A stretch of DNA of 64,000 nt from Flavobacteriaceae bacterium (GTDB taxonomy: Bacteria; Bacteroidota; Bacteroidia; Flavobacteriales; Flavobacteriaceae): contig JAHEET010000005.1 in NCBI GenBank assembly GCA_024640565.1, positions 124,001 to 188,000 on the forward strand, in the 5' to 3' direction. The notes below the pieces were generated by a model. It saw nothing but the letters and a program-made list of their open reading frames with translations, was not told where the DNA came from and searched no databases. Position numbers and translations under genes: made by a program. Of this stretch, positions 18,375 to 23,511 are shown one piece after another. Numbering within the stretch: the stretch's first letter is position 1; each line of letters begins with the position of its first letter.

Positions 18375-18470
18375 TTTCTTTTTTAAATACTTTAATTAAC
18401 TATTCAAAAAAATAGCGTTTCTTTTAGGAAATCCGTAAATTGCACCTTGAATTTTCTATCAAATTTACGA

Positions 18471-21400
18471 ATGGAACAAATTAAACCCCATAAACCAATC
18501 TATAAAGTAAGAATTGTAACAGCTGCCTCCCTTTTTGATGGACACGATGCCGCGATCAATATCATGCGAAGAATCATCCAATCTACCGGAGTAGAAGTCA
18601 TTCACCTTGGACATGACCGTAGCGTGGAAGAGGTCGTCAATTGCGCCATTCAAGAGGATGCCAATGCCATAGCAATTACCTCTTACCAAGGAGGGCATAA
18701 TGAGTATTTTAAATACATGTTCGATTTGTTGAAAGAAAAAGGTGCCAGCCACATCAAAATATTTGGTGGCGGAGGTGGTGTAATTCTTCCTGAAGAAATT
18801 GAAGAATTAATGTCTTACGGGATTGCACGCATCTATTCTCCAGATGATGGACGTGCCCTGGGGTTGCAAGGAATGATTAATGATTTAGTACAACAAGCAG
18901 ATTATGCAATTGGAAATGTACTAAATAATGAATTGAAACACTTAGCAAAAAAAGAAATTGGCAGCATTGCTCGTATTATTTCTGCGGCTGAAAACTTCCC
19001 TGAGGTAGCCAAAGCAACCTTAGAAAGCATTCACCTAAAAAATAAAAACTCAAAAATACCTGTCCTAGGAATTACGGGTACTGGTGGGGCTGGAAAATCC
19101 TCTTTGGTCGATGAATTGGTCCGTCGTTTTTTAATGGATTTTCCTAAAAAGACAATCGGAATTATTTCTGTAGATCCCTCAAAAAGGAAAACATGGGGTG
19201 CACTCTTGGGCGATCGAATTCGAATGAATGCCATTCAAAACGAACGTGTTTACATGCGCTCTTTGGCCACACGTCAATCCAACTTAGCGCTCTCAAAATA
19301 CGTGAATGAGGCGATCCAAGTTTTAAAAGCTGCCGAATTTGATTTAATAGTTTTAGAAACTTCTGGTATTGGGCAATCGGATACTGAAATTATTGAACAT
19401 TCAGATACCTCTTTGTATGTAATGACTCCTGAATTTGGCGCTGCAACTCAGTTAGAAAAAATTGACATGTTGGATTTTGCAGATTTAGTGGCCATTAATA
19501 AGTTTGACAAACGCGGTGCTTTAGACGCAGTAAGAGATGTCAAAAAGCAATACATGCGCAACAACAATTTGTGGCACATACATCAAGATGATCTTCCAGT
19601 ATACGGCACCATTGCTTCCCAGTTCAATGACCCCGGAATGAATACGCTGTATAAAAAACTCATGGATAAGTTGGTGGAAAAAACGGGTGCTGATTTAAAA
19701 TCTTCATTTGAAATTACGCCTAAAATGTCTGAAAAGATATTTGTAATTCCACCTGCAAGAGTTCGATATCTATCAGAAATTGCAGAAAGCAACAGAGCCT
19801 ATAACAAAAAAGTAAATTCACAAGTGGAAGTTGCTCAAAAACTATATGGAATCTATCAAACAATTTTATCAATTACCGAAAGTAACCAAACTGTAAAAAC
19901 CTTCAAACCAGCGAAGTCTTTTTTAACAAAAACAGGAATTGATAGCGATGCAATTCTAGCGCTCGAATCGATTCAGAACGACATTGAATTTATTCAACTT
20001 TTATTTCAACAATTTGAAAAAGTAAAATTGAATCTGAACCCCTACAACTGGGAAGTCATTCTCAACTGGCCGGCGAAAGTTCAAAGATACAAGCAACCAA
20101 TTTACACGTTTAAAGTAAGAGATAAAGAAATCAATATTGAAACCCATAGCGAATCATTATCGCATTCGCAAATACCCAAAATTGCATTGCCCAAATACCA
20201 AGCTTGGGGCGATTTGTTGCGTTGGAATTTACAGGAAAATGTGCCCGGAGAATTTCCCTACACCGCCGGACTTTATCCTTTTAAACGTATGGGCGAAGAT
20301 CCTACCAGAATGTTTGCTGGTGAAGGAGGTCCTGAAAGAACCAACAGACGTTTTCATTATGTGAGTTTGGGCATGGATGCGAAAAGACTTTCTACAGCTT
20401 TTGATTCTGTAACTCTTTATGGAAATGATCCGGGGGTTCGCCCAGATATCTACGGAAAAATTGGAAATGCAGGGGTATCCATATGCTGTCTGGACGACGC
20501 TAAAAAACTGTATTCTGGTTTTGATTTGAGCCACCACATGACATCTGTTTCGATGACTATTAATGGTCCAGCTCCCATGTTATTGGGTTTCTTTATGAAT
20601 GCAGCAATAGATCAAAATTGCGAAAAATACATCAAAGAGCACCAATTGGAAAAAGAGGTGGAAGCAGCTTTTGTAGCTATGTACGATGCCAAAGGACTAG
20701 AAAGACCTCTTTACCAAGGCTCTTTACCGGAGGGAAACAATGGTTTAGGCCTCATGCTTTTGGGACTTACTGGTGATATGGTTTTACCGCATGAAGTGTA
20801 TCAACAGATTAAAAAAGAGACCTTAACGCAAGTTCGAGGAACCGTACAAGCAGACATTTTAAAAGAAGATCAGGCACAGAATACCTGTATTTTTTCTACT
20901 GAATTCGCGCTACGATTAATGGGAGATGTACAAGAATATTTCATTGAAAAACAAGTGCGAAATTTTTATTCGGTTTCGATTTCTGGGTATCATATTGCTG
21001 AAGCGGGCGCAAACCCTATTACTCAATTGGCTTTGACATTGTCCAACGGATTTACCTATGTTGAGTATTACTTAAGTCGTGGTATGGACATCAATCAATT
21101 TGGCTCCAACTTGTCTTTTTTCTTTTCCAACGGAATAGATCCTGAGTACTCGGTAATTGGGAGAGTTGCCCGTAAAATTTGGGCCAAAGCAATGAAACAT
21201 AAATACGGAGCCAATGCAAGAGCACAAATGCTGAAATACCATATTCAAACCTCTGGGCGCTCTTTGCATGCTCAGGAAATTGATTTTAATGACATTCGAA
21301 CGACGCTGCAGGCGCTGTATGCCATTAATGACAACTGCAATTCTTTGCACACCAACGCCCATGACGAAGCCATTACAACTCCTACGGAAGAATCGGTGCG

Positions 21401-21935
21401 AAGAGCCATGGCCATTCAATTGATTATTAACAAAGAATTGGGATTGACCAAAAATGAAAATCCAATTCAAGGAGCCTTTATTATTGAAGAATTGACGGAT
21501 TTGGTGGAAGAGGCCGTCTTATTAGAATTTGACAGAATTACAGAACGTGGTGGTGTTTTAGGCGCTATGGAAACCATGTATCAACGTTCAAAAATTCAGG
21601 AAGAAAGCCTGTATTATGAAACCTTGAAACACAATGGTGAATTTCCAATTATTGGGGTAAATACTTTCTTAAGTTCAAAAGGGTCTCCGACCATTCAACC
21701 TGCAGAAGTGATTCGTGCAACAGCATCAGAAAAGCAATTTCAAATTCAAACAAAAGAGCACCTGAATAAGGTGAACTTTGAACAAGTAAAAGTACAACTA
21801 GCGCAACTGCAAAAAGCGGCAATACAAAATGACAATGTATTTGAAAAATTAATGGAAGCTACCAAAGTTTGCTCTTTGGGACAACTTACGGAAGCCTTGT
21901 TTAAGGTTGGCGGACAGTATCGCAGAAACATGTAA
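18471..21935 (+). CDS. icmF: Fused isobutyryl-CoA mutase / methylmalonyl-CoA mutase family protein (B12-binding + MeaI-type GTPase + mutase)
   Basis: Single [28 protein letters not shown] (B12), [21 protein letters not shown] (P-loop), [30 protein letters not shown] (mutase); start set at MEQIKPHKP. Confidence 0.92.
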
Positions 21936-22020: not shown

Positions 22021-22662
22021 TTAATACTTTTCGTAGGTTGTTTGTGCTGTTTTTAAGTAATTGACAATGTGGTCAATGGTTCGTTGCTTTGCTTTCTCTA
22101 AAGTTGTGGTAAAATTGAAAAAGAAAACGGAGGCTTCCCCAATGGCGATAAAATCTAGAATTTCTTTGTCGTTTTTGGTATCATACACCGCTACCTTGAC
22201 ATTGATCAAGCAATATTCAACAGAAGTGGAAGTATCCATACCTCCCATGCCGTTCATTCCCCCTATATTTCCAGACTGTCTCCATTCATATCTATTTGTA
22301 ATTTCGAAATTCGAAAAGTGAATGACATAATCGGCATCTGCAGTATTTAAAGAAGCATACGTCACCTTTGAAATGTCGTATGTGACATCTCCAAAAACCT
22401 TGCTTGCTTTTATTTTTTTTGGAAAAATCATTTAAATACTGACTGGAAAAAGCTGCTTTTTCTTCGTAATTTTTTTGGAAGGTATTGGTAAACTCAAGCA
22501 CTTTAATGTCATCAGTAGCAATGAGGATGACTTTCTTTGTTTCTGGGGTTTCAATCTCTGCTTTCTTTGAAATGAAAGTAACGTATTGTTTAGTCACCTT
22601 GCAGGAAGCAAAACTAAAAAAACGAGGATCGTTACTAAAAATAGGTAGGAATTTCTTTTCAT
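22021..22662 (-). pseudogene. DUF4136-type lipoprotein gene, disrupted by two homopolymer frameshifts
   Basis: MKRNSYLFLVTILVF//FSFASCKVTKQYVTF...SQYLNDFSKK//KIKASKVFGDVTYDISKV...; the three pieces lie in shifted frames at a T7 run (A7 on +, 22616-22622) and an A8 run (T8 on +, about 22413-22420). Confidence 0.75.
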
Positions 22663-22825
22663 ATTCTTTTTTTCAAACTTACAACTATTTTAAAAATTCA
22701 TGTAGACTAAGATTGAAAACTGAGATCATGTCCCAAAATGAGGCTTAGAAAAGAAGTTTTTTACCTGCATTTGCATCTTTTTCTTACCTTTTATGTCTAT
22801 TCAATGAACTTTAAAATCAATAATT

Positions 22826-22933
22826 ATGAAAAATCATAAAAACCAATGCACTTGCACCTGTGAGGCATGTGTGAATAATGAATGTAAAAATTGCACATGT
22901 ACAAATTGTTCTTGCACATCGTGTAATTGTTAA
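22826..22933 (+). CDS. Metallothionein-like 35-aa Cys-rich peptide, not in supplied ORF list
   Basis: MKNHKNQCTCTCEACVNNECKNCTCTNCSCTSCNC*; 11 Cys in 35 residues, CxC/CxxC spacing. Confidence 0.8.
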   Translation: MKNHKNQCTCTCEACVNNECKNCTCTNCSCTSCNC

Positions 22934-22971
22934 AATGAAATTTGTATACTCTTAAAGAAGTTGATAAAAAA

Positions 22972-23511
22972 ATGACAACAAAACAAGTTTGGGCAAATTA
23001 TCACGCAGATCTTAAACGATTTATCATCAGCAAAGTAAAAAATAAAACAATTACTGATGATATTTTACAAGATACCTTTGTAAAAATTCACACCAAATTA
23101 CACACTCTCAAAGACATCAAAAAATTAAAATCTTGGTGTTTTACAGTCGCTAGAAATGTTATTTTAGATCATTGGAAATCCAACAATAAAACTTTTGAAA
23201 TTGCCAATTTTGAATCTGAAATTGCCATTCAAGAAAAAATACACACCGAAGAAGATTGCTTGCAAGGTCTTTTAAAAAACTTGCCAAAAAAATACAGAGA
23301 TCCTTTATTTCTATCTGATATTCGTGGATTAAAACAACAAGAAATCGCAAATCAGTTAGAGCAAAATTTAGCAACGACAAAGTCACAAATTCAGCGCGCT
23401 CGAAAACTAATTGCCAAAGGGTTTATAGATTGTTGCGGATTTGTAATGAATAAAGACGGAAATTTAGTTGGCGAGATACAAGATAAAAAAGATTGCACTT
23501 TTTGTAGGTAA
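22972..23511 (+). CDS. ECF RNA polymerase sigma factor, SigZ-like
   Basis: MTTKQVWANYHADLKRFIISKVKNKTITDDILQDTFVKIH...LKQQEIANQLEQNLATTKSQIQRARKLI...CCGFVMNKDGNL..CTFCR tail. Confidence 0.9.
   Translation: MTTKQVWANYHADLKRFIISKVKNKTITDDILQDTFVKIHTKLHTLKDIKKLKSWCFTVARNVILDHWKSNNKTFEIANFESEIAIQEKIHTEEDCLQGLLKNLPKKYRDPLFLSDIRGLKQQEIANQLEQNLATTKSQIQRARKLIAKGFIDCCGFVMNKDGNLVGEIQDKKDCTFCR

Follow-up and report, generated by a model that had tools for sequence, protein, structure and literature searches.

The ECF sigma factor CnrH is restrained by a membrane anti-sigma factor together with a periplasmic sensor. CorE of Myxococcus xanthus is a metal-dependent ECF sigma factor with a Cys-containing tail that works free of an anti-sigma factor, and its class (CorE/CorE2), formerly ECF44, is now designated ECF238; the tail is 38 amino acids long with six cysteines and an invariant CxxC-x7-CxC arrangement, a CxC motif lies in the linker, and copper-dependent activity, which involves no anti-sigma factor, requires both this motif and the C-terminal cysteines (PMC3107203, PMC8999054). 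These two papers report no metallothionein partner for CorE, and no member of the CorE group from the Bacteroidota appears in the 2011 survey. Among the bacterial metallothioneins, MymT also lies within a metal-controlled regulon, that of RicR (PMC10141476).

Here we describe a locus in a 64,000-nucleotide stretch of Flavobacteriaceae DNA (the window) in which a gene for a small Cys-rich peptide precedes that of a SigZ-like ECF sigma factor. The preliminary description had proposed a 35-aa, 11-Cys ORF at 22826-22933 upstream of the sigma gene, and on re-reading of the window the ORF is present, with the translation MKNHKNQCTCTCEACVNNECKNCTCTNCSCTSCNC*. The promoter at 22772-22799 was missing from that description and is the decisive functional context for the locus, whose features are as follows.

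18447-21935, + strand: gene for a fused methylmalonyl/isobutyryl-CoA mutase, ending GGQYRRNM, upstream of the peptide-sigma operon
22021-22431 and 22292-22597, - strand: two overlapping ORFs flanked by the IcmF-type mutase gene and the promoter of the peptide
22772-22799, + strand: ECF-type promoter of the peptide-sigma operon, TGCATCTTTTT-N12-GTCTA, exact
22772-22782, + strand: -35 promoter element, TGCATC followed by T5
22795-22799, + strand: -10 promoter element, GTCTA, after a 12-nt spacer
22826-22933, + strand: type I metallothionein-like peptide, 35 aa, 11 Cys
22972-23511, + strand: SigZ-like ECF sigma factor, 179 aa, with Pfam Sigma70_r2 and r4_2 and no adjacent anti-sigma gene
23242-23259, + strand: His91-x4-Cys96 in the sigma2-sigma4 linker and start of sigma4, candidate metal ligands
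23431-23508, + strand: C-terminal tail of the sigma factor, a candidate module for metal or thiol sensing that contains C154-C155 and C175-x2-C178
23537-25510, - strand: YgiQ-like radical-SAM gene, convergent, next after the sigma gene

The two overlapping reverse-strand ORFs have no Pfam match and look like a single gene split by a frameshift. The mutase gene also lies just upstream of the operon in about a dozen relatives (L017, L019, L020, L033-L035, L038, L040, L045, L046, L049, L052, L054), sometimes tens of bases before the promoter.

The 35-aa ORF is a real and conserved protein-coding gene. The window contains its Cys spacing pattern a single time, none of 100 dinucleotide-shuffled sequences has it, and homologues are found at the same position in 25 of 36 genomes of the genus, as well as in other genera of the Flavobacteriaceae. 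All 11 cysteines are invariant across 29 aligned homologues, whose identity to the window copy falls as low as 47%. In a codon alignment of the 45 copies that carry the core Cys pattern, all 495 Cys positions are retained while TGT and TGC exchange freely, and non-Cys residues are conserved too, despite synonymous sites that are saturated in most comparisons. A peptide with ten cysteines, one having been lost through a short deletion, is present in the genus member G009, which is not among these 45 copies. A chance ORF is ruled out by the co-occurrence with the sigma gene, the invariant cysteines, the codon exchange and the shuffle test.

The peptide has the general sequence properties of metallothioneins, being small and Cys-rich with CxC and CxxC spacing and without F, Y or W. 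However, none of the 29 homologues has a credible match in Pfam or NCBIfam, metallothionein families (including the SmtA/BmtA Pfam family) are absent from their Pfam matches, and a PDB sequence search with the peptide gave no match; a known metallothionein or other described family is thus rejected within these three libraries. A wide spread of type I peptides beyond the family is also rejected: among 289 genomes sampled from the class and 297 from the phylum, they were found only in the genus and family. The earlier claim of an unrecognised metallothionein-like peptide next to a Cys-tailed SigZ-like ECF factor has thus held up, the peptide being real, conserved and outside Pfam and NCBIfam; it adds a metallothionein-like family from a lineage common in the sea, the marine flavobacteria. 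The best explanation is that it is a cytosolic metallothionein, with metal binding predicted. A short, Cys-rich, precursor-like sequence with a YgiQ-like radical-SAM gene downstream in the window might also be read as a RiPP precursor, for a thioether or another kind of natural product, but that reading is extremely improbable: the YgiQ-like gene is convergent, Pfam and NCBIfam give no precursor family match, no maturation enzyme was recognised beside the locus in the window, no recurring maturase gene was seen beside the peptide in relatives when neighbours were read locus by locus, and the promoter of the peptide is common to metal exporters (see below).

The peptide and sigma genes are tightly linked. 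Their presence agrees in 36 of 36 genomes of the genus (25 with both, 11 with neither), and in a family sample of 150 genomes a 33-37-aa peptide of matching pattern is encoded just upstream of all 24 of the closest sigma relatives, such that a short Cys-rich ORF adjoins the close SigZ-like relatives in both samples. One of these 24 pairs is decayed (G189, L046), with a frameshift in the peptide gene and stop codons in the sigma gene, indicating that the pair decays together. The preliminary description had named an intact sigma gene beside a broken peptide ORF, or loss of Cys conservation, as findings that would count against it; no relative seen has the former, and the Cys spacing is kept in 45/45 core-pattern copies. 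The closest named relative among the matches listed is a Polaribacter MAG (L137), with a sigma factor that is 94% identical and a peptide that differs at one residue. One genome carries a partial second copy of the sigma gene (G004:C22:9352-9576), which covers the C-terminal half (query 104-178) at 75% identity and is situated roughly 1 kb downstream of the intact gene.

A sister group of six loci (L055, L056, L057, L060, L276, L277), which we refer to as type II, encodes a peptide of about 37 aa with about 14 Cys and ending in CC (for example MNKCKCTNCDCTKCNCGNCLENNCTCSKCECDKCDCC) before a related sigma gene, and most of the six have a TGTATC variant of the promoter. Unrelated Cys-rich small ORFs of 45 and 59 aa lie by other SigZ-like paralogues, downstream of the sigma gene at L284 and upstream at L292, and the association may therefore have arisen more than once.

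In the window the peptide stop codon is separated by 38 bp from the sigma ATG at 22972. In G005 a PEMT/ICMT-type membrane methyltransferase gene (L005 1704-2309) lies between peptide and sigma, ending 1 bp before the sigma start. The short gap in the window, in which no terminator was found, and this arrangement in G005 favor a single operon. An ORF that is short, rich in Cys codons and directly before a regulatory gene could in principle be a leader peptide that governs cysteine-dependent transcription attenuation of the sigma gene. This is very unlikely, because no terminator-like structure was found between the ORF and the sigma gene, RNA folding is not unusual (z +1.03), an entire inserted gene separates the ORF from the sigma gene in G005, and the Cys spacing is invariant and non-Cys residues conserved over saturated synonymous sites.

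The sigma factor matches both Pfam Sigma70_r2 and r4_2 above their cut-offs, and scores 60.9 bits against the ECF superfamily model TIGR02937 (cut-off 42.9). The earlier label "SigZ-like" is sound in so far as the best NCBIfam models are those for SigZ, but both scores fall below the curated cut-offs (163.3 against 212 bits for NF007215, and 148.8 against 168.65 bits for TIGR02959). The absence of an adjacent anti-sigma gene was also correctly noted, with no anti-sigma-like gene adjoining the sigma gene in the window and the YgiQ-like gene next in line, and the Cys-rich C-terminal tail is as first reported. C154, C155 and C175 are present in 51/51 aligned sigma factors, C96 in 49/51 (the two exceptions being peptide-less rows), C178 in 48/51 (missing from both peptide-less rows and one type II row), and H91 in 45/45 type I rows. 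The combination of C96, C154-C155 and usually C175-x2-C178 is confined to peptide-linked sigma factors, nearly all of which also have H91, and further peptide-less homologues have different C-terminal ends. In a 74-row tree the peptide-linked sigma factors form one side of a single branch (support 98/87), a clustering matched by none of 500 shuffles. An AF2 model (pLDDT 82, pTM 0.45) is confident for each domain and offers candidate ligand geometry only; in it the last helix has C154-C155 at its end, a beta hairpin and C175-x2-C178 come next, and residues 73-88 are disordered. A Foldseek search with this model returned ordinary ECF sigma factors, including the CnrH-CnrY structure 4cxf.

Because the sigma factor has its own covarying set of Cys and His residues it could itself be the sensor, and the best explanation of the analysis is that it is an anti-sigma-free, thiol-based metal-sensing ECF factor, for which metal binding is predicted. 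The same covariation could be taken instead to mean that the peptide is a regulator, with the apo or metal-loaded form binding the Cys tail of the sigma factor and metal or oxidation altering the contact; the obligate linkage and co-loss of the two genes, and the lack of any other anti-sigma gene nearby, fit that idea as well. We regard it as improbable, since the peptide is metallothionein-like and lacks a hydrophobic surface to which a sigma factor could bind, anti-sigma genes usually overlap the sigma gene or sit downstream of it, and a strong promoter common to exporters better suits a bulk effector; a Cys tail alone can moreover suffice, as CorE illustrates. The earlier suggestion that the peptide acts on the sigma factor as its thiol-based sensor partner is thus not supported so far, given the sigma factor's own covarying Cys/His set and a peptide that resembles a target, and a direct partnership between the two is possible but unsupported.

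The promoter has the size and spacing of ECF promoters, with a distance of 17 nt between TGCATC and GTCTA. In the window, as in nearly all relatives, about 26 nt separate it from the start of the peptide gene. Among 50 aligned loci the motif is no more than 80 nt upstream of the peptide start in 49, the peptide ATG follows it by 24-29 nt in 48, and positions T1, G2, T5, C6 and T25-C26-T27 are invariant. A search of the window allowing up to two mismatches gives a single match, which is exact (shuffle mean 0.13), and in the 2.28-Mb genome from which the window comes 22772-22799 is the only site that is exact or has one mismatch. Nine sites in that genome have two mismatches and many have three, which is near the control level, and these are therefore not interpreted as a regulon. 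An exact scan of the species-wide genome collection matched at least 115 stretches; among the matches listed, nearly all of the Flavobacteriaceae stretches are at the peptide-sigma locus, in Polaribacter, Tenacibaculum, Winogradskyella, Kordia, Lacinutrix, Olleya, Gelidibacter, Bizionia and other genera, and those outside the Bacteroidota are mostly chance-like.

The strongest reason for calling this system a metal response is that the promoter is common to CDF, DUF3703 and P-ATPase genes. In 40 genomes of the genus there are 65 matches with at most one mismatch, compared with 10 for a control using the backward pattern, and almost all of the exact matches are at the peptide-sigma operon or its DUF3703 gene. 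In related genomes 13 of 14 genes for ZitB-like CDF exporters have the promoter about 60 nt or less before their start, and 12 of these sites score at least 21, which is where the weaker peptide promoters fall (19-27). DUF3703 genes are also preceded by the promoter; where a genus genome has such a gene, it mostly stands immediately before the peptide, and on 3 of 4 annotated plasmids DUF3703 is beside metal genes (CzcA, CDF, CadR, P-ATPase). The promoter also precedes a Cd/Zn-type P-ATPase gene in one genome and a second CDF gene in G140. In G021 (L246, near 764 kb) a TonB-dependent receptor gene, about 2 kb from a CDF gene, starts 38 nt past a one-mismatch promoter. The streamlined genome of the window itself contains neither DUF3703 nor a close homologue of the ZitB-like CDF and has a single promoter site, and the evidence for metal thus comes from relatives. 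Our literature search, in which most subscription journals were outside reach, found no paper on the peptide-sigma pair, on DUF3703 or on SigZ with a metallothionein.

The shared genes also bear on the choice of metal. Zn or Cd is most likely, because the genes that share the promoter in this clade encode ZitB-like CDF exporters and a P-ATPase of the Cd/Zn family, and not copper or arsenic exporters. It is rather unlikely, though not negligibly so, that the same operon responds instead to Cu(I)/Ag(I), arsenic/antimony or thiol oxidation. In its favor, CxC-rich peptides bind Cu(I) as well, and peptide-less SigZ paralogues with a related promoter lie beside arsM (L251 in G182, with a motif of the same form before arsM) or beside thioredoxin and ArsP_1 permease genes (on an Arenibacter plasmid, L326). 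A motif of the same form also precedes an ArsP_1 permease gene in a Polaromonas MAG (L190). A Mariprofundus MAG (L193) is also among the loci of a possible arsenic branch, which have a SigZ paralogue, a related motif or both. This small sample suggests that the wider SigZ-like group answers thiophilic metal(loid)s. More tentatively, SigZ-type ECF factors as a whole may be anti-sigma-free, thiol-based metal(loid) sensors that share a promoter grammar, TG-Y-R-TC-T4/5 ... GTCT, with one branch for arsenic methylation or export and another, in the Flavobacteriaceae, that captured a metallothionein, the response being switched off either by metallothionein buffering or by contact with the sigma tail.

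For the locus itself, we think it probable that this is a self-contained metal-defence operon in which a metal-sensing, anti-sigma-free ECF sigma factor autoregulates a metallothionein. The sigma factor would sense excess soft metal ions (Zn/Cd most probably, but perhaps Cu or another thiophilic ion) directly, through the Cys and His ligands of its linker and C-terminal tail, and the metallated form would then bring RNA polymerase to TGCATC-T5-N12-GTCTA promoters, although these could in principle be read by some other ECF factor. Its first target would be its own operon, giving both autoregulation and large amounts of the 35-aa metallothionein, which would chelate metal in the cytosol and whose gene seems to be the principal target of the regulon. 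In relatives the same sigma factor would also drive the ZitB-like CDF exporter, DUF3703 and, in the one genome, the Cd/Zn-type P-ATPase. As the metallothionein buffers metal and the exporters remove it, free metal would fall, the sigma factor would lose its metal, and the response would presumably shut off.

The promoter shared with exporters and the linkage to a sigma factor point to a previously undescribed route for switching on bacterial metal defence, with an anti-sigma-free sigma factor proposed to control a metallothionein, a role held by repressors in the known cases. For SigZ-type factors, which are poorly understood, this supplies a testable signal, promoter and set of targets, and with the conserved promoter and Cys/His set in hand the prediction can be tested cheaply.

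Of the described systems, CorE is similar in having no linked anti-sigma factor, in that both the sigma2-sigma4 linker and a C-terminal extension carry cysteines, and in its association with metal-export genes. However, the tail here is about 25 aa with CC-x19-C-x2-C rather than CxxC-x7-CxC, and the linker has H91-x4-C96 rather than CxC; because of this different Cys arrangement we do not class the sigma factor as CorE-like. The SigZ family (TIGR02959/NF007215) provides the best-scoring NCBIfam models over nearly the full length of the sigma factor, but the Bacillus-type SigZ of Priestia has the CC pair without the terminal CxxC, and no Cys-rich gene is annotated beside it. CnrYXH of Cupriavidus similarly involves an ECF sigma factor that controls metal export, but the locus here has neither the membrane anti-sigma factor nor the periplasmic sensor of CnrH. 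The peptide resembles SmtA/BmtA and mycobacterial MymT in being short, about 30% Cys and spaced CxC/CxxC, but it differs in lying outside the Pfam and NCBIfam families, and in being apparently under the control of a sigma factor rather than a DNA-binding repressor.
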